Under the pieces are notes generated by a model. It was not told the DNA's origin. It did no database searches and saw only the letters and a list, made by a program, of their open reading frames with translations. From a virus, in IMG/VR virus record IMGVR_UViG_3300045922_000732, positions 1 through 26,119 of that record: a DNA stretch of 26,119 nt, one strand, 5' to 3'. The translations under genes were made by a program, and so were the position numbers. This document shows positions 3,517-26,119 of this stretch, piece by piece (the first letter of the stretch is position 1; each line of letters starts with the position of its first letter).

Positions 3517-5349
3517 TCAAGTTTTGATGATGTAATTCATCACCAGCCAGGGCTGGGTGATGTTCAAGCTGCTGCCGAAAAATGAGCCAGAGCCGCTGAA
3601 ACTGTGGTTGTGAGAGCCGCCACCGCCCGTGGTCCCGGAGGTGTAATCGTTACCGCCGCTACGGTCAAAAGCGCTGACCGGCCGCTGCTGTGTGCCGGAA
3701 AAGTTGGTGGCCTGGTAGGTATGCGTGTGGCTGGGAATTTGCGTGGTCGCCAGCGTGGTGCTGCCCACCGTGCCGCTGACGCTGATGGAGCCAGCGGGTG
3801 TTTGGCTCTCTGCCCCACCTGCACCACCCAAGCTATCCGCCTGGCTGGCGGTGATGCGGTTGGCGGAACTGCCGCCCATGTTATCCAGGCCTGCCACCAC
3901 CCGGCCGCGCAGGTCGGGCATGTTAAACGTTGTGCTGCCATCGCCAGCCCCGTAACTGGTGCCAATAACGGCAAACAGCCCGGCATAGGTGGTGCGGCTG
4001 ACAGCACTTCCATTACACAACAGCCACCCGCCGGGGGCGGCGCTACCGGCAAAGGGCATCACCATGCCGGCGGCAAAGGGTTGCGGCGCATCCACCTCTG
4101 CAGGGTTGCCACCGCCATCAAACCCCAGCAGCTTGTTTGGGGTGCCGATAGCCAGCTTGGGCAGGGTAACCGCGCCGTTTTTAAGATGGGCGGTGTCGAC
4201 GGTATCTTCGGATGGTACGCCGATGGGTGCCTGCGCCCCGAACACCACCTCGATGTTATCCGTGCCAGTTGGTGGCGGGCTGGAGAACACAAGGTCATTG
4301 CCGCTGAGGTCATAAGTATCCTTCTGCTGGTAAACGCCGGAGATGTAAATGTTGGTGTTATTCTCCGACCCCGGTGCGCCGGAGAGGGTGAATTCTGTTT
4401 CCACCCCATCACCGCTGAAGCGCTGCACAGTCACGTTCACCGCCCCCAGCCCGCCGCCCGAGGCGTACCAGACTTCGTTGTCCTTATCGCCGATGAAGGT
4501 ATCTACGTTGTATTGCGCGGCAAGGGTGCGGCTGGGCAGGCCGTTGATGGTGTCTGCCCCCTGGCGATTAACCACCACCACGTTTACGTCCCCTGTGGCT
4601 TTGGCCACCCCCAGGCGAAAATCCGCCGCCAGAGTTGCCAGCGCCGGCAATAAAATCTGCACTTCGCCACCCGTGGTATCCACCCGGTAGAGGTGACCAT
4701 TAGCGGTATCCGGCACGGTAAAGTGGCTGTCGGCATAGGCCAGGTCAATCACGTCCGAGAACAACTGCCCCGCTGCGCTGGCCGCTGCCGCTGCGGCACT
4801 GGCAGCCGCACTGGTGGCGCTGGCGGCGGCGTTGGTTTCAGAAGATGCTGCGTTGCTGGCAGAGGTAGCAGCGGCGTAAGCACTGGTAGCGGCATTGCTT
4901 TCTGACGTGGCGGCAGCGGTGGCAGAATCTGCTGCATCATTTGCGCTACCGGCGGCGGCAGTGGCGCTGCTGGCCGCAGCGGCTTCGTAACTGTCGGCGT
5001 TGGTTTCACTCTGGGCGGCGGCAAGCTCACTGGCAGCTGCGGCGGTTTCCGAAGCCAAGGCAGCGGCAGCAGAACCAGCGGCAGCGGTTTCGCTGGCGGC
5101 AGCATTGGTTTCAGAAGTTGCAGCAGCAGCGGCGCTGGCCACGGCTTCATCCCGCATGGTAGTCAGCGTGGTCAGGCTGCTGGTGAGCAGCGCCTGATTT
5201 TCGCCGATGACTTTCGCCACGCTTTTCACCGGGCCGTTTTCGGTGGTCACGGTAGTGGCGGCATCGCCATGGACAATGTCGTGCAGCAGGCCGCTATCCG
5301 TTGTGGTTTGCACAACAGCGGCCTGCAGTTGTTCCTGCAGGGTGGGCAT
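3517..5349 (-). CDS. Tail fibre with Ala-rich shaft and phage tail collar domain
   Basis: A 610-residue fibre. Residues 1-65 (MPTLQEQLQAAVVQTTTDSG) look like an attachment region. Residues about 66-200 are a low-complexity shaft of Ala/Ser/Glu repeats such as SETNAAASETAAAGS, of the kind that forms trimeric coiled coils in lambda Stf-like fibres. Next comes a beta-rich region with QRFSGDGVETEFTLSG. A tail collar domain (PF07484 type) follows at about 425-490, with GGWLLCNGSAVSRTTYAGLF and FNMPDLRGRVV. The C-terminus is Gly/Ser/His rich (GGGGSHNHSFSGSG) and ends TQPWLVMNYIIKT, a typical collar-type tip. It binds the cell surface. The ATG is at 5349. The small gene at 3505-3179 follows. Confidence 0.9.
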   Translation of the reverse strand: MPTLQEQLQAAVVQTTTDSGLLHDIVHGDAATTVTTENGPVKSVAKVIGENQALLTSSLTTLTTMRDEAVASAAAAATSETNAAASETAAAGSAAAALASETAAAASELAAAQSETNADSYEAAAASSATAAAGSANDAADSATAAATSESNAATSAYAAATSASNAASSETNAAASATSAAASAAAAAASAAGQLFSDVIDLAYADSHFTVPDTANGHLYRVDTTGGEVQILLPALATLAADFRLGVAKATGDVNVVVVNRQGADTINGLPSRTLAAQYNVDTFIGDKDNEVWYASGGGLGAVNVTVQRFSGDGVETEFTLSGAPGSENNTNIYISGVYQQKDTYDLSGNDLVFSSPPPTGTDNIEVVFGAQAPIGVPSEDTVDTAHLKNGAVTLPKLAIGTPNKLLGFDGGGNPAEVDAPQPFAAGMVMPFAGSAAPGGWLLCNGSAVSRTTYAGLFAVIGTSYGAGDGSTTFNMPDLRGRVVAGLDNMGGSSANRITASQADSLGGAGGAESQTPAGSISVSGTVGSTTLATTQIPSHTHTYQATNFSGTQQRPVSAFDRSGGNDYTSGTTGGGGSHNHSFSGSGSFFGSSLNITQPWLVMNYIIKT

Positions 5350-5919: not shown

Positions 5920-6162
5920 TCACTTAAAGAACACCTGATAAATCAACACCCCAATGTTGAGCACGGCAACAATGGTGTTTATCAGGGTTAACCTGCTATT
6001 GCTTTTCTCCACTTCCAGAAGCTGTTTATGTTTCAATAATTCTATTTTTCTTTCGTGAGATTTCTCGGCTTCTGGCGCACCAAATCCGACGCCATTTTCT
6101 CCAAAATGAACAAGATCTTCGAGTTCTTTCTGGAGCAATTTTTTCTTTTTAGTCAGAAACAT
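5920..6162 (-). CDS. Small tail-anchored membrane protein, moron-like
   Basis: An 80-residue protein. Residues 1-55 are charged and Lys/Glu rich (MFLTKKKKLLQKELEDL; ERKIELLKHKQLLEVEKSN), likely one amphipathic or coiled-coil helix. Residues about 58-77 (LTLINTIVAVLNIGVLIYQV) form a single membrane helix at the C-terminus. Base use is clearly more AT-rich than the flanking tail genes, and the gene lies between tape measure and minor tail protein, where lambda has none. It ends at an intrinsic terminator. Together these suggest an accessory lysogenic gene, perhaps acting on the host envelope (for example superinfection exclusion), which is inference. The ATG at 6162 is preceded by AAGGAT. Confidence 0.75.
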   Translation of the reverse strand: MFLTKKKKLLQKELEDLVHFGENGVGFGAPEAEKSHERKIELLKHKQLLEVEKSNSRLTLINTIVAVLNIGVLIYQVFFK

Positions 6163-9168: not shown

Positions 9169-10110
9169 TCAGTACCCCGCTACATCGTTGATAAGGGTGA
9201 TTTCCACCATGTTGCCCACCAGGGCATCCTTGGCTCCTTGGAAGTCGTACCCGGCCTCCACACCACCCGGTCCGCTGACCGAGCGTTTGGGTTTGGGCAG
9301 GTACACTTCGTGGCAGTCGATGACCAGTTGGTTGTCGGCATCAATCACGTAGGAGAGTTCCAGGTCAATGGGTGTGCCGGCACGGGCGGCGGTCATCAGG
9401 GCGGTATCGGCATAGCGCACGGTGAGCGACCCGGAGAGCGACGCCACGCCGGGGTCCACGCCATCCACCTTGCCATCGCTGCGGATGGTTTCCACCCGCT
9501 CCAGGTTGTTGCTGTAAGTGAGCGCGGCAGCGGTGACATTCCCCAGCAGGGTGCCGCCTTGTTTTACCGCGCCTTGAAATTGCGAAAAGCGCGTGTAGGT
9601 GGCTTCTTCCGGGTCAGCGTCTTTGGTGCTGGCCTGAGCGGTTTCTCCCTGACCAATGAGGTTGATGGTGGCCTGCGCCTCGCCAGAGCGCTGGAAGTTA
9701 AACGCAATGGAATTCGCCCGCACGCCGGTGAACAGGGGGAAGTCGGGAATCTCCGGCAACCCCAATTCCACCGCCAGGCTGGGCAAGGTGGCCGCACCCG
9801 ATTTAAACACGTGGGTGTAGGGGCCAGTGCCGGTGGTGGTAGGTGCGCCGAACACTGCCTTCAGCCAGCGGCCAATGTTGCGCAGGTCCACCGGCACCAC
9901 GATGTTGCCGTCCACGTTGATGACGTCCTGATAGGGCTGGGTGGGGTCGCGTCCCAGGCCCAGCACGTTGGAAGCGATCAGCCCCTGGGCCGAGTCCAAA
10001 TCGGACGACACAAAGGGTGTTAAATGATAGGCCCCCGCTGCGGGGGCCGTGCCGTAAGTTGATTCAAACGCCGTGAGAAGCCGAGCGTTCCAGCCGTATG
10101 CACGTGCCAT
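9169..10110 (-). CDS. Major tail tube protein
   Basis: A 313-residue protein starting MARAYGWNARLLTAFESTYG. It fits the Phage_tube_2-type tail tube family (lambda V analogue): an N-terminal stretch with GTAPAAGAYHLTPFVSSDLD, an EIPDFPLFTGVRANSIAFNF repeat-like domain in the middle, and beta-strand-rich Ig-like C-terminal sequence. It polymerises into the tail tube through which DNA passes. It lies between the tail terminator gene and G, as V does in lambda. The start at 10110 follows a GGAGA site. Codons 21-27 contain the strong GC hairpin at 10030-10048. Confidence 0.88.
   Translation of the reverse strand: MARAYGWNARLLTAFESTYGTAPAAGAYHLTPFVSSDLDSAQGLIASNVLGLGRDPTQPYQDVINVDGNIVVPVDLRNIGRWLKAVFGAPTTTGTGPYTHVFKSGAATLPSLAVELGLPEIPDFPLFTGVRANSIAFNFQRSGEAQATINLIGQGETAQASTKDADPEEATYTRFSQFQGAVKQGGTLLGNVTAAALTYSNNLERVETIRSDGKVDGVDPGVASLSGSLTVRYADTALMTAARAGTPIDLELSYVIDADNQLVIDCHEVYLPKPKRSVSGPGGVEAGYDFQGAKDALVGNMVEITLINDVAGY
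10030..10048. repeat. Strong GC hairpin inside the 5' end of the tail tube gene
   Basis: GGCCCCC-GCTGC-GGGGGCC, a perfect 7-bp stem with a 5-base loop, lies at codons 21-27 of the tail tube gene. There is no T run on either strand, so it is not an intrinsic terminator. It might affect translation or mRNA life. The loop GCTGC is also found in the hairpin at 15211-15232. Confidence 0.6.
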
Positions 10111-10122
10111 GTGGGTCTCCTT

Positions 10123-10557
10123 TTATTGAAGTGGGTTGGTTGTTACGTATTCCAAAATCACCGGCACCACCGCCGCTTTGATGGTGGGTGCGCCTTCGAT
10201 GGTTTCCTGCAGAATCTCCGGCGCACCGGCGCGGGCATAATCCACCGTACCGCCCAGGGTGGTATCCGCCGCCAGCACCGTGCCAATGCCCATCAGCAGC
10301 GCGTCCAGCGCCGCATCCCGCTGGGCCTGATCAGCCTGCTGTACCAACACCTCAACCTCCGCCTGGTGCTGGTAGAGGTAGCGGGTTGGCGACAGCACCA
10401 CCTCCGGCTCGCCGGGGTCGCCATCTCGCAGAATAACCAGCCCCTCAGCCGGCACCTTGGCAGGCAGCGGCTCGTTACGTTTCACCTGTGGGCCATCCAG
10501 CCCTTGCAGGCATAAAAAAAGGCCCGTTAGGGCCTGTTCTCGTGTACTGTTACTCAT
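10123..10557 (-). CDS. Tail terminator / completion protein (lambda U-like, by position)
   Basis: A 144-residue protein starting MSNSTREQALTGLFLCLQGL. It has the alpha/beta make-up of tail terminators: an N-terminal helix, LSPTRYLYQHQAEVEVLVQQ (an edge strand and helix), and the end IEGAPTIKAAVVPVILEYVT. Homologous-looking phage genes just upstream of tail tube genes are tail completion proteins that cap the tube; some databases call such proteins 'acyl-CoA transferase', an evident mislabel. The start ATG at 10557 has GGAG seven bases upstream, supplied by a palindrome shared with the divergent moron start at 10569. A terminator-like hairpin lies in codons 8-15. Confidence 0.72.
   Translation of the reverse strand: MSNSTREQALTGLFLCLQGLDGPQVKRNEPLPAKVPAEGLVILRDGDPGEPEVVLSPTRYLYQHQAEVEVLVQQADQAQRDAALDALLMGIGTVLAADTTLGGTVDYARAGAPEILQETIEGAPTIKAAVVPVILEYVTTNPLQ
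10514..10535 (-). terminator. Intrinsic-terminator-like hairpin inside the tail terminator gene
   Basis: On the minus strand AGGCCC-TAAC-GGGCCT forms a 6-bp stem with a 4-base loop, followed by a T run (seven T counting the last stem base). It lies in codons 8-15 of the 10123-10557 gene. It would stop leftward transcription just after the moron cassette, before all tail genes, unless late transcripts are antiterminated or ribosomes mask it. Confidence 0.6.
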
Positions 10558-10560
10558 TGG
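10548..10560. repeat. Direct repeat flanking the HEPN-like cassette, left copy
   Basis: TGTTACTCATTGG. The right copy TGTTACTCAGTGG is at 11121-11133; they match at 12 of 13 positions. This copy contains the start codon of the tail terminator gene (minus strand CCAATGAGTAACA). Confidence 0.7.
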
Positions 10561-10569
10561 AGGACTCCA
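10558..10569. promoter_or_regulatory. Palindromic ribosome site serving two divergent starts
   Basis: TGGAG-GA-CTCCA is its own near-complement, so each strand reads GGAG. On the plus strand GGAG is 4-7 bases before the moron ATG (10569); on the minus strand GGAG is 7 bases before the tail terminator ATG (10557). The two starts are only 11 bases apart. Confidence 0.6.
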
Positions 10570-10844
10570 TGGCTTACCATTATATTTTTTCTGAACTACA
10601 GGACCAAATCAGAGGAATTCTTATTCGCTCAGATAAACTGATGCATTTGCACGATGACAACTGGTGGAATCTTGTAAGTTCACTAGACTTGCTGCATGAT
10701 ACGGATTTAGCCATTTCTCACTTTCTGGAAACTAAATGGAAAGAGGGTGATCATGGTGAGATGTATTTAAAAATCTACGGCTTCTTCACCTCGTTGTATC
10801 TGCAACACGAAGCTGTGGATGCGCTTTATCTAACGTCTTTGTGA
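10569..10844 (+). CDS. HEPN-like moron protein, N-terminal fragment of a frameshifted gene
   Basis: A 91-residue frame starting MAYHYIFSELQDQIRGILIR, with strong GGAGG just upstream of the ATG at 10569 (an earlier start at 10488 would run through the opposing gene). It contains DDNWWNLVSSLDLLHDTDLA and MYLKIYGFFTSLYLQHEAVD, features I know from a family of bacterial small proteins of unknown function in which the helix YGFxxxLxxQxxAV is followed by an RNDxxxH motif. Here the frame stops at 10844 (TGA) and the rest of the family continues in the next frame (10834-11199). It is AT-rich compared with the neighbouring phage genes, consistent with transfer. On its own it lacks the RNxxxxH motif. 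Confidence 0.7.
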   Translation: MAYHYIFSELQDQIRGILIRSDKLMHLHDDNWWNLVSSLDLLHDTDLAISHFLETKWKEGDHGEMYLKIYGFFTSLYLQHEAVDALYLTSL

Positions 10845-11199
10845 CCCCAGCTGCAGCCACATTTGTCAAAAAATAACAGATGGGGGCTTTCAACAGCTCC
10901 GCAAGTTGAGAAACGGGTTAGCAGCCCATACACCCAGAGCAAATGGAGGGCACGCTTATTTTATCAACCGGCCACTGACTTTCCCTGACTTCATCGATTT
11001 TACTAAATATTCTTCGAATATGGACGAAGCTGATGAAGTACTCGTGCGTGCCCGCTTCGATAAAATCGTAGAGATTCAGCAAAGTGCTCTGCAACCCATC
11101 CTTCAGAAAATTCTGGGACATGTTACTCAGTGGGCCAGTTCCTCAGAATCAGGTTCGGTAACCGCTCCTGCCACTTCCGAGCCTCAGCAACAAATGTAA
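10834..11199 (+). pseudogene. HEPN-like moron protein, C-terminal fragment with RNGLAAH motif
   Basis: Frame +1 relative to the previous fragment opens after a stop at 10831-10833 and runs CDPSCSHICQKITDGGFQQL and LRKLRNGLAAHTPRANGGHA to TAA at 11197-11199; the first usable start inside it is TTG at 10906. Removing one T from the TTT at about 10838-10840 fuses the two frames into one protein of about 210 residues. The motif RNGLAAH is R-x5-H with Asn after Arg, as in HEPN ribonucleases (R-x4-6-H); a HEPN fold is inference. The last 20-odd residues run antisense into the end of the 11123-11779 gene, beyond the 13-bp repeat that marks the cassette edge. The fragment could also be read as a separate 97-residue ORF. 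Confidence 0.6.
11121..11133. repeat. Direct repeat flanking the HEPN-like cassette, right copy
   Basis: TGTTACTCAGTGG, 12 of 13 identical to the copy at 10548-10560. On the minus strand it reads CCACTGAGTAACA and contains the stop codon of the 11123-11779 gene. The interval between the copies is the plus-strand cassette. Confidence 0.7.
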
Positions 11200-11779
11200 T
11201 CTTCCTTGGCAGTTTCACCTGCGGGACCAGCCAGAACATCACCACGGTGGTGAGGCCGCGACCGCTTTGGCGGGCGCTGTCGCTGGCTTTGCGGAAGCCG
11301 CGCAGTTGGGCGCTCTGCCTGCTGTAGGAAGCCCGCACATTGTCTACCACCAGCAAGGACGGTCCGCCCCGGCGGTAGACAAACCGTAACGGCCCGAAGC
11401 GGTGTTCGGGGAAATTGCTGGGGTTGATGCGCTTGCCGCCCACGCCGCGCTTGGGCGCGTTGGGGGTGGGAATGGCTAGCCACCAGCCATCTTTTGAGCG
11501 GATGACGGTGCCATCCTCAAACACCGCCATCACCTTGCTGGCCCTGGTGAACACTAGGCCGGCGGCGCGGAGGCTGTCCTGCCCTTTTGGATAAACATTC
11601 CCGCGCCAGGTATTGGCCATGCGCTGACCCAGACCGGCGGAGGTGACCTGCTGGCGCATGCTCAGCTTCAGGCCATCGGTGGCTTCGCGCACGCCCTGGG
11701 TAACGGCCCGTTCGGCGGTTTTGAGTTCCTCCCGGATAAAGCGTTGCAGGTTGCCCTCCAAAGCCACCCGCAGGCGCAT
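11123..11779 (-). CDS. DUF6441-like head-tail connection protein
   Basis: A 218-residue protein starting MRLRVALEGNLQRFIREELK. The ATG at 11779 overlaps the previous stop (TGATG) and follows GGGAGG; an upstream start at 11794 would overlap more. Features include GLGQRMANTWRGNVYPKG, a PTPNAPKRGVGG region, and LPRKITFVAEARKWQERLP near the end, which I recognise from phage proteins placed between head-tail connectors and tail terminators (DUF6441 group). Its role is probably tail completion or neck formation (lambda Z-like), by position. Its stop lies in the 13-bp repeat at the edge of the HEPN-like cassette. Confidence 0.7.
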   Translation of the reverse strand: MRLRVALEGNLQRFIREELKTAERAVTQGVREATDGLKLSMRQQVTSAGLGQRMANTWRGNVYPKGQDSLRAAGLVFTRASKVMAVFEDGTVIRSKDGWWLAIPTPNAPKRGVGGKRINPSNFPEHRFGPLRFVYRRGGPSLLVVDNVRASYSRQSAQLRGFRKASDSARQSGRGLTTVVMFWLVPQVKLPRKITFVAEARKWQERLPNLILRNWPTE

Positions 11780-20412: not shown

Positions 20413-20640
20413 ATGGCGCAACTCAACACCACTCAGCAAGCCATGCTAGCCAATTTACAGGCCCTGCACGGCATTGCCCAGGACTTGGCCCGCATCACGG
20501 GCGACAGTCTGCAATACGCCCAGGAAGGCGAACAAAACACCATGGTCGGCGGCCTGGTGGAGGCCGCACAGCCGCTGATAGCCGCGCAAGGACTGTATGA
20601 TGCCATCCTGGCCCTGCACCGCCTGAACCCCCAACGCTAA
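20413..20640 (+). CDS. Small phage accessory protein, uncharacterised
   Basis: A 75-residue, helical protein: MAQLNTTQQAMLANLQALHG, then DLARITGDSLQYAQEGEQNT. The ATG is preceded by AAAGGAG (7-9 bases). It reads opposite to the late operon and diverges from the small terminase gene, whose ATG is 121 bases away. It forms a two-gene unit with the DUF3489 gene, 16 bases further on. No motif found; longer antisense frames over it lack ribosome sites and family features. Confidence 0.7.
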   Translation: MAQLNTTQQAMLANLQALHGIAQDLARITGDSLQYAQEGEQNTMVGGLVEAAQPLIAAQGLYDAILALHRLNPQR

Positions 20641-20656
20641 CCGAAAGGAAACCCAC

Positions 20657-20932
20657 ATGAGCAAGAAAGCCAAAACCACCCCGAAACCACAACCCGCGCC
20701 AAAGGCACAGCCGGTTGCCGAGACCGCTCTGAAAACCAGTAAAAAGCAGGTCGTGCTTGACCTGCTGAAACAACCCGGCGGCGGCACCATCGCCGCCCTG
20801 GAAAAGGCCACTGGCTGGCAACAGCACAGCGTTCGCGGGGCGCTGGTCAACCTCAAAAACCGTGATAAACAACCCATTGAAAGTGAGAAGCGTGATGGGG
20901 TGCGGTACTACTTTCTGACCGCGATGGTCTGA
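20657..20932 (+). CDS. DUF3489 family protein
   Basis: A 91-residue protein. Residues 1-30 are a Lys/Pro/Ala tail (KKAKTTPKPQPAPKAQPVAE) of low complexity. Residues about 31-90 are the DUF3489 core: a winged helix-like domain with QVVLDLLKQPGGGTIAALEK, ATGWQQHSVRGALVNLKNR and the wing IESEKRDGVRYYFL. Family members often sit beside recombinases or phage genes; function unknown, probably DNA binding. The ATG follows GAAAGGAAA. The last 25 bases overlap the end of the opposing methyltransferase gene. Confidence 0.82.
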   Translation: MSKKAKTTPKPQPAPKAQPVAETALKTSKKQVVLDLLKQPGGGTIAALEKATGWQQHSVRGALVNLKNRDKQPIESEKRDGVRYYFLTAMV

Positions 20933-24590: not shown

Positions 24591-25004
24591 TTAATCAAAA
24601 CCGAAAACTTTACGCTGCTCCTCCCACGATAGCGGCAGACCCGTCATCACCTGAGTGATAGAAAAGCCGGAAGGCTGCTGCCCCTGCAGCAGCGCCTTAA
24701 TGATGGACGGGTCCAGATAGATCAGTCGTAATACCCGCCAAACATAAGAGTGGTGAAAACCCTTGGCTTCCGCCAGCTCACGGTGACTGTTATATTTGCC
24801 AACCTCCAACTCCGCCTGCCAGCTCAGGGCGGTGGCAACTGCTTTCAGGGCTTTGTGGTCCAAAGGGTCTCCTTCAACTTGTTTTTGCCCTTCGGTCGAT
24901 ACAGGCGGGATCACCATCACCCGGCTACGGCCACCCAACCGCTTCATGTTGAGCGGCACATGCGCCACCAGTGAATCGGTAGTTGGGTCAAGCGTGAGCT
25001 TCAT
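24591..25004 (-). CDS. HTH partner protein of the serine recombinase
   Basis: A 137-residue protein starting MKLTLDPTTDSLVAHVPLNM. The N-terminal third is beta-type (RSRVMVIPPVSTEGQKQVE); residues about 70-105 are an HTH (YNSHRELAEAKGFHHSYVWR). Small genes of this kind often overlap the end of phage serine recombinase genes. It may modulate recombination or bind the att sites; this is inferred from context. The ATG lies inside the recombinase stop region (17-base overlap). Confidence 0.8.
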   Translation of the reverse strand: MKLTLDPTTDSLVAHVPLNMKRLGGRSRVMVIPPVSTEGQKQVEGDPLDHKALKAVATALSWQAELEVGKYNSHRELAEAKGFHHSYVWRVLRLIYLDPSIIKALLQGQQPSGFSITQVMTGLPLSWEEQRKVFGFD

Positions 25005-26119
25005 GGGCAGCCTCCGGTTGTTGGGTCATATGCCCGATCAGGTCCTCCACCCCTTCGCGGTGGAAATGCAGATGGGCACCACCCGGCGACAACTCCACTT
25101 TGTTGAGCAGCAAGTCCACCAGCCGGTTCTGTTCGGCCGGAAACAACTCCGCCCACAGGTCATCCAGACTGCGCAGGCGTTGGCGGATTTCGTTTTCGTC
25201 TACTTCCTGCCCTTGTTTGCGAATCTGTTTCCAGACCTCAAACACCATCTCCGGCTGCTTGACCAACTCCCGGATATGCTGCAACACCAGGTTTTCCAAC
25301 TCACCAGCGGAGATGCTCCCCACCGGGCAGTTGTGGCAGGTTTGTCGTCGCTTGGCCGAAGGTGTGTAATACCGATAGAGCTTGCCTTTGCGGCGGGTAA
25401 AAGTATGCGTCATGGCACAGTTGCAACCCGAACAGGTTACCTTACCGTTCAGAATGCTTCGGGTGTCGGTACGCTCATCCAGTTTGCGGGCACGTCGGCG
25501 CATCGGCTCGGCGAAGATGGCCTGCACGTCTTCCCACAACTCCTCACTGATCAGGGCCTCGTGCTGCCCCTGGTAGAGATTCTCCTTGTGGCGGATTTTG
25601 CCCACGTAAATCGGGTTGCGCAGGATGTGATGCAGCACGGTGGGAGTAACCAGCTTACCTTCATGTACCCTTCCATTTCTGGCCTTATAAGATTTGCTGC
25701 GGTAGCCTTCTGCGCGCAGTTGGCGGGTCAGTGTTGTTAATGATCGCAGCAAGATAAACCGCTGGAAGATTTCTTGGATCATTTCTGCCTCTTTGGCATT
25801 CACCACCAGCTTGCGATCCACAATATTGTACCCCAGCGGGGGCACGCCCCCCATCCACATGCCTTTCCGTTTAGATGCAGCCACCTTATCGCGGATGCGT
25901 TCCCCCGCCAGCTCTCGTTCAAACTGAGCAAAGCTGAGGATGATGTTAAGGTGCAACCGACCGATGGCGCTGGCGGTGCTAAACTGCTCGGTGACAGAGG
26001 AGAAGCTCACCCCATACTGCTCGAACATGCTGGCCAGCTTGGCAAAGTCCATCAGAGAGCGGGACAGGCGGTCAATTTTGTAAACCACCACCATGTTGAT
26101 TTTTCCAGCCCGGATGTCC
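24988..26119 (-). CDS. Large serine recombinase / integrase (N-terminus beyond the window)
   Basis: The frame is open from the right edge to TGA at 24988-24990, about 376 residues visible. The part before MVVVYKIDRLSRSLMDFAKL is missing its start and the catalytic Ser near the N-terminus. The family features follow: KIDRLSRSL (resolvase active region), SFAQFERELAGERIRDKVAA with GGVPPLGYNIVDRKLVVN (linker), and the Recombinase domain, GRVHEGKLVTPTVLHHILRN. A zinc ribbon then follows: CSGCNCAMTHTF...CHNCP. A coiled-coil end follows (ENEIRQRLRSLDDLWAELF). It likely integrates and, with a factor, excises the prophage. The element end (att site) lies beyond the window or near. Confidence 0.93.
   Translation of the reverse strand, partial: DIRAGKINMVVVYKIDRLSRSLMDFAKLASMFEQYGVSFSSVTEQFSTASAIGRLHLNIILSFAQFERELAGERIRDKVAASKRKGMWMGGVPPLGYNIVDRKLVVNAKEAEMIQEIFQRFILLRSLTTLTRQLRAEGYRSKSYKARNGRVHEGKLVTPTVLHHILRNPIYVGKIRHKENLYQGQHEALISEELWEDVQAIFAEPMRRRARKLDERTDTRSILNGKVTCSGCNCAMTHTFTRRKGKLYRYYTPSAKRRQTCHNCPVGSISAGELENLVLQHIRELVKQPEMVFEVWKQIRKQGQEVDENEIRQRLRSLDDLWAELFPAEQNRLVDLLLNKVELSPGGAHLHFHREGVEDLIGHMTQQPEAAHEAHA

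Follow-up and report, generated by a model that had tools for sequence, protein, structure and literature searches.

In the window, i.e. the whole stretch of 26,119 nucleotides analysed here (IMG/VR record IMGVR_UViG_3300045922_000732), the DNA between a DUF6441 gene and the tail terminator gene is very probably a moron acquired at a hotspot in the tail operon of a temperate siphovirus, with the frames of both flanking genes kept by selection. By definition (PMC4378225), a moron is additional DNA separating two genes that lie next to each other in related phages, and this is the arrangement that was found at the window site. An earlier note on this DNA had proposed a foreign cassette between two formerly overlapping genes, and the proposal was strongly supported, as uninterrupted junctions occur commonly among relatives. 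Variable spots that lie between conserved genes of phages have so far yielded many new anti-phage systems, and the present one is easy to recognise, since any acquired DNA is flanked by two conserved tail genes.

Repeat and gene junction in the window

The minus strand of the window carries a late operon in the order DUF6441, tail terminator, tail tube. The upstream gene (11123..11779, minus strand) was identified as the DUF6441 phage tail gene by Pfam PF20039 (E=3.2e-43) and also by phrog_6367, and its relatives are annotated as 'minor tail protein' in Rhodobacter phages. It is followed at a distance of 565 bp by the tail terminator gene (10123..10557, minus strand; phrog_4204, E=6.1e-33), for which the alignment with homologs gave 50-68% identity, and then by the tail tube gene (9169-10110, minus strand; PF18906). 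Judged by eye, a large ORF at 24988-26094 is serine recombinase-like, and the phage looks temperate.

The 13-bp direct repeat described in the earlier note is present, with a left copy TGTTACTCATTGG (10548-10560) and a right copy TGTTACTCAGTGG (11121-11133), which are 573 bp apart and identical at 12 of 13 positions. On the minus strand the left copy, CCAATGAGTAACA, includes the start codon ATG of the tail terminator gene, which opens with ATGAGTAAC at 10557, and the right copy, CCACTGAGTAACA, in which the ATG reads CTG, holds the TAA of the DUF6441 gene, whose 3' end is ...ACTGAGTAA at 11123; the reading of the two copies as a gene start and a gene stop was thus borne out. The 9-mer common to both copies has no further occurrence in the window (0.04 expected). 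In a control in which gene ends were exchanged among 101 occupied junctions and the DUF6441 stop region was compared with the terminator start region, a 13-bp match with at most one mismatch was found in none of 1541 swapped pairs and a match of 12 or more in one of the 1541, which places the repeat above chance. Between the divergent ATGs of the terminator gene and the inserted gene lies an 11-bp spacer (10558..10568), TGGAGGACTCC, which offers a Shine-Dalgarno-like GGAGG on the plus strand for the cargo and GGAG on the minus strand for the tail terminator. An overlap of the type supposed by the earlier note, as in several other genes of the window, was seen only in part: other late genes do overlap, but as ATGA or TGATG, and ATGAGTAA occurs once in the window.

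Empty and occupied junctions in relatives

The comparison comprised 71 viral loci with DUF6441 relatives, 80 genome loci (Micavibrio and other Alphaproteobacteria) and 80 loci obtained via the terminator alignment; the tail terminator as a single-sequence query returned no loci, whereas the alignment query did. Loci are numbered with the prefix L. In most of the nearest 71 loci the DUF6441 and terminator genes abut or overlap, and the abutting state is present across many lineages. Uninterrupted overlapping copies, for which the earlier note had suggested a search, do exist, in a lineage other than that of the window: in L135, a locus of an alphaproteobacterium from roe-deer reticulum, the empty junction reads GAGAACTGGAAAGATGAGTAAACGAGAACAAG, exactly the predicted ATGAGTAA overlap. 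Its sister L141, with flanks 87.5% and 88.3% identical to those of L135, possesses a 378-bp insert with ATGAGTAA once on either side, and this insert comprises a promoter-like sequence, a small gene resembling an exported protein and a terminal hairpin with T7. The junction is GTGAGTAA in L133 and ATGACTAG in L065 and L067, and further pairs of empty and occupied junctions with flanks 81-97% identical are L021/L023, L085/L023, L015/L014, L009/L004, L003/L005 and L022/L024. Pairs such as L135/L141, L021/L023 and L015/L014 document how foreign DNA enters a packed, overlapping operon with neither gene broken. An exact search for ATGAGTAAYAGYAC retrieved no closely related phage with an empty ATGAGTAACAGT junction, and we infer the window's own state before insertion from the other lineages. 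In the L031 contig an internal deletion (4600-4780) took out most of the tail terminator gene.

Accessory-gene hotspot

If a junction with 140 bp or more between the genes is regarded as occupied, this holds for 100 of 199 loci at the DUF6441-terminator junction, as compared with 42/200 at the first junction downstream and 15/162 at the second, proportions that are indicative, as the loci form a non-random sample with near-duplicates. The junction is therefore the hottest of the three tested and not the sole site. Inserts at the occupied junctions, about half of the 199, range from 0.14 to 2.9 kb. The 97 loci with an ORF-bearing insert fell into 61 cargo clusters, in all of which (61/61) the GC content of the insert was lower than that of its flanks. 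Cargo was oriented in sense in 32 clusters and in antisense in 29; selection for antisense cargo was accordingly rejected. Profile matches assigned cargo to AbiEi/AbiEii, HipA, Fic, ParE, HigB-like Gp49, TacA and RES/Xre, as well as to viperin, Schlafen-type helicase, DUF4143, metal efflux and acetyltransferases. Terminator-like ends were found in 4 of the 61 clusters (0.1 expected). The product of one insert (cargo set A4) is a prokaryotic viperin (NF038283, E=3e-91), and metal-efflux families are matched by two, so that the cargo is not confined to toxin-antitoxin genes.

In seven loci (L004, L005, L006, L007, L010, L011 and L012) an element of ~45 bp lies just past the DUF6441 stop, on the left of the insert; it has an inverted repeat, CTAAACTGTGAGTTTAG / CAAACTCTGAGTTTG, and accompanies unrelated cargo (AbiE, AAA-DUF4143, HipBA). 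Its common presence in L004-L007 and L010-L012 suggests that cargo was swapped within an older insert.

The 100 occupied loci among 199 and the 61 clusters show that cargo turnover between the two conserved genes is high, as expected of a prophage defence hotspot. It is somewhat more likely than not that the DUF6441/terminator junction is an unreported and very broad accessory-gene hotspot in an essential late operon, spread over prophages of Micavibrio, Magnetospirillum, Rhodobacterales and other Alphaproteobacteria, which would hold a large stock of new genes for defence and toxin-antitoxin systems, accept cargo in either orientation and have its overlaps restored via duplication. In the literature searched, neither papers naming DUF6441 nor a comparable hotspot in Alphaproteobacteria were encountered.

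Cargo gene of the window

The inserted DNA (10561..11120), whose junction is absent in relatives, has a GC content of 43%, as against about 60-63% in the surroundings, and its gene runs opposite to the late genes, in agreement with the earlier description of an AT-rich, antisense cassette. For the plus-strand gene, no single intact ORF was recovered. A 5' part of 91 aa (10569..10844, plus strand, antisense to the late genes) begins 11 bp from the ATG of the terminator gene and ends at a stop, and the remainder (10845..11199, plus strand) is open in another frame. Nor does the repeat bracket this gene cleanly, as had been supposed: the 3' frame passes through the right copy and ends 66 nt inside the DUF6441 gene, its last ~22 codons lying antisense within the latter. 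Going by the sequence, the two parts belong to a single gene whose frame changes near 10830, due either to mutation or to sequence error, and they were counted as one because the read-through product matches proteins of plasmids and chromosomes along its length.

The read-through product matches a hypothetical protein of a Shewanella plasmid over residues 24-208 (E=3e-6), a hypothetical protein of an Acinetobacter plasmid and a few chromosomal proteins. Over all searches the homologs were confined to these two plasmids and a few chromosomes; no relatives were found in viral contigs, annotated phages, or the related phages whose genomes and records were searched, and the family had no Pfam, PADLOC or PHROG match. 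A single-sequence structure prediction was uninformative (pLDDT 39) and left unused. Ten positions are invariant among six homologs, including R114 and H120 of the motif RNGLAAH, located in the 3' part. HEPN proteins are characterised by the spacing R-x(4-6)-H, and R114/H120, invariant in the six sequences, have this spacing. RNGLAAH would thus represent the R-x5-H pattern of HEPN-type RNases, and the designation HEPN-like is drawn from one motif in six sequences.

The weakly conserved region of the cargo ends near the right repeat, close to the start of which the Shewanella homolog stops. As that homolog ends there and the further codons are antisense in DUF6441, the cargo most likely lost its own stop upon insertion. 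For both phage genes the frames were 'cleanly restored', in the words of the earlier note; this does not hold for the cargo, which has a frameshift and apparently lacks its stop. The cargo appears to be a rare HEPN-like protein, whose intact form was probably an RNase-type defence or toxin protein, and of which the window copy looks decayed. No sigma-70 promoter match was found for the plus-strand cargo in this region, the sigma-70 consensus being possibly not that of the host, and no transcription terminator for it on the plus strand of the window; frameshifted and without a recognised promoter or terminator, the gene may be non-functional.

Origin of the insert and meaning of the repeat

In the ancestor of the window the DUF6441 and terminator genes would have overlapped as ATGAGTAA, a state seen directly in other lineages, and the empty junction would have read ...CCAATGAGTAACAGTACACGAGAACAG. 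Cargo presumably entered by rare illegitimate or short-homology recombination, and the insertion would have left one copy of the overlap plus a few flanking bases at each side, so that the stop of the upstream gene is preserved, as is the start of the downstream gene, which also gains a new Shine-Dalgarno sequence. As both tail genes are presumably essential, only products that restore the frames should survive selection. Afterwards, cargo probably spreads and is swapped among related phages via homologous recombination in the conserved flanking genes. The cargo of the window would be transcribed against the late operon.

The earlier note had linked the repeat to entry of the cassette with a short duplication or by homology-driven exchange, and had suggested a search for further cassettes within the same repeat. 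Other cassettes do occur at the site, but different cargoes do not have this repeat in common, and the repeat was not supported as an entry signature of cassettes. At the other 100 occupied junctions the similarity between the ends is no higher than in the swapped controls, which makes the window an outlier of 101, whereby the 8-bp copy of L141 lay partly outside the stretch compared; likewise, terminal inverted repeats at the inserts were no longer than expected (mean 5.10, against 4.94 after swapping). On these two tests, a transposon mark or a target-site duplication of general occurrence was rejected, and since excess end similarity and terminal inverted repeats are absent from the other occupied junctions, the repeat is a product of restoring two frames needed by the phage and not the signature of a recombinase; it is more aptly taken for the duplicated overlap on which the survival of both genes depends. 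Between genes separated by a few bases, DNA can be inserted with no duplication, whereas duplication of the overlap is required if two overlapping genes are both to survive. The duplication may form by template switching or short-homology recombination, which are candidate routes.

Insertion of a transposon or integrase type, with the 13 bp as target-site duplication by a site-constant recombinase, could appeal to the duplicated ATGAGTAA around the insert in both the window and L141 and to the high occupation of the junction. It is nonetheless very unlikely in view of the two tests, and furthermore lengths and ends of the inserts vary and transposases or recombinases are missing among the most frequent cargo families. 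Somewhat less remote, yet still unlikely, is an insertion without duplication, in which the DUF6441 3' end and the terminator 5' end evolved TGAGTAACA independently: most occupied junctions have no repeat, and both gene ends are constrained (NWPxE-stop and M-S/T-K/N-), which raises chance similarity. However, the match extends past the constrained positions (CCA before, CA after), none of the 1541 swapped pairs matches over such a length, and the same arrangement occurs with a known empty state in L135/L141.

That the gene order of the window is ancestral and the abutting state of relatives arose by deletion of cargo seems highly implausible; perfect excision between the 13-bp repeats could yield the empty state and half of all junctions are occupied, but the 61 cargo families at this site are unrelated to one another and uniformly lower in GC than their flanks, so that they cannot all be ancestral, and the abutting state is present in many lineages. 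Loss of particular cargoes surely happens as well. A different question is whether the antisense placement might be functional as in Staphylococcus Tha/Ith, where Tha, a HEPN protein acting against phages, is activated by tail proteins and kept under control by an antisense gene that overlaps it (PMC11087260), such that late transcription would silence a tail-sensing HEPN defence protein upon prophage induction. The window cargo is HEPN-like, antisense and located between tail genes, but it is frameshifted, and the 32 sense and 29 antisense clusters reveal no general selection for antisense placement; control of this kind is improbable here.

Comparison with known systems

As in the morons of lambdoid and Mu-like phages (PMC4378225), foreign DNA of atypical composition, with a single gene or a pair, lies between genes adjacent in relatives, and the insert of L141 likewise has a promoter-like sequence, a gene and a terminator. 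In contrast to these, the target genes here overlap and the overlap is duplicated, and the cargo gene of the window is broken, and neither a promoter, as judged by a sigma-70 consensus that may not be the host's, nor a terminator was recognised for it. Hotspots of antiviral systems are known from P2/P4-type phages (Rousset et al. 2022, PMC9122126) and share with the present site small loci of high turnover between two conserved phage genes and cargo rich in defence and toxin-antitoxin families, the cargo of the present site being assigned from family matches such as AbiE, Fic, viperin and HipA. They concern other phages, however, and are located next to cos or by cI/integrase, whereas the present site is inside the tail operon. 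The DUF6441-terminator site is thus a further hotspot of a known type, in other phages and inside the tail operon. Tha-1 and Tha-2 of Staphylococcus aureus prophages (PMC11087260) are likewise prophage-borne, with an R-x(n)-H motif, and antisense to neighbouring phage transcription, and their HEPN type may be shared by the window cargo; Tha (301 aa) has R-x4-H, as opposed to R-x5-H in the window protein, its location differs, and the window copy is frameshifted. These parallels may serve as a lead.

Hairpin in the tail terminator gene and further moron-like patches

Codons 8-15 of the tail terminator gene contain an intrinsic-terminator-like hairpin with T7 (10513..10535, minus strand; AGGCCCTAACGGGCCT TTTTTTAT; fold z=-3.6), which also occurs at the homologous position in L002-L025, L036, L073-L087, L160 and L161. 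A perfect stem is retained in relatives, in either of two registers (AGGCCC...GGGCCT or AAGCCC...GGGGCTT), and the codons CTT, TTT and TTA are fixed in 24/24, 24/24 and 22/23 of them, while most other conserved leucine codons vary freely. As a cause of the hotspot the hairpin was rejected, 14 of 33 junctions with it being occupied as against 87 of 169 without. T TTT TTA is in phase for -1 slippage, and L024 and L025 have T8 and a shifted frame. The hairpin may end transcripts from upstream cargo or be a slippage site, and its conservation raises a separate question on transcription of the tail operon.

Two lower-GC ORFs at 20413-20932 (plus strand), flanked by the terminase region on one side and a DNA methyltransferase gene on the other, are possibly another moron of the window; the second ORF matches DUF3489 (E=4e-17). 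A third moron-like patch, with a GC content of about 47%, surrounds a small AT-rich gene at 5920-6162 (minus strand), situated between 5868 and 6178, for a putative membrane protein of 80 aa.
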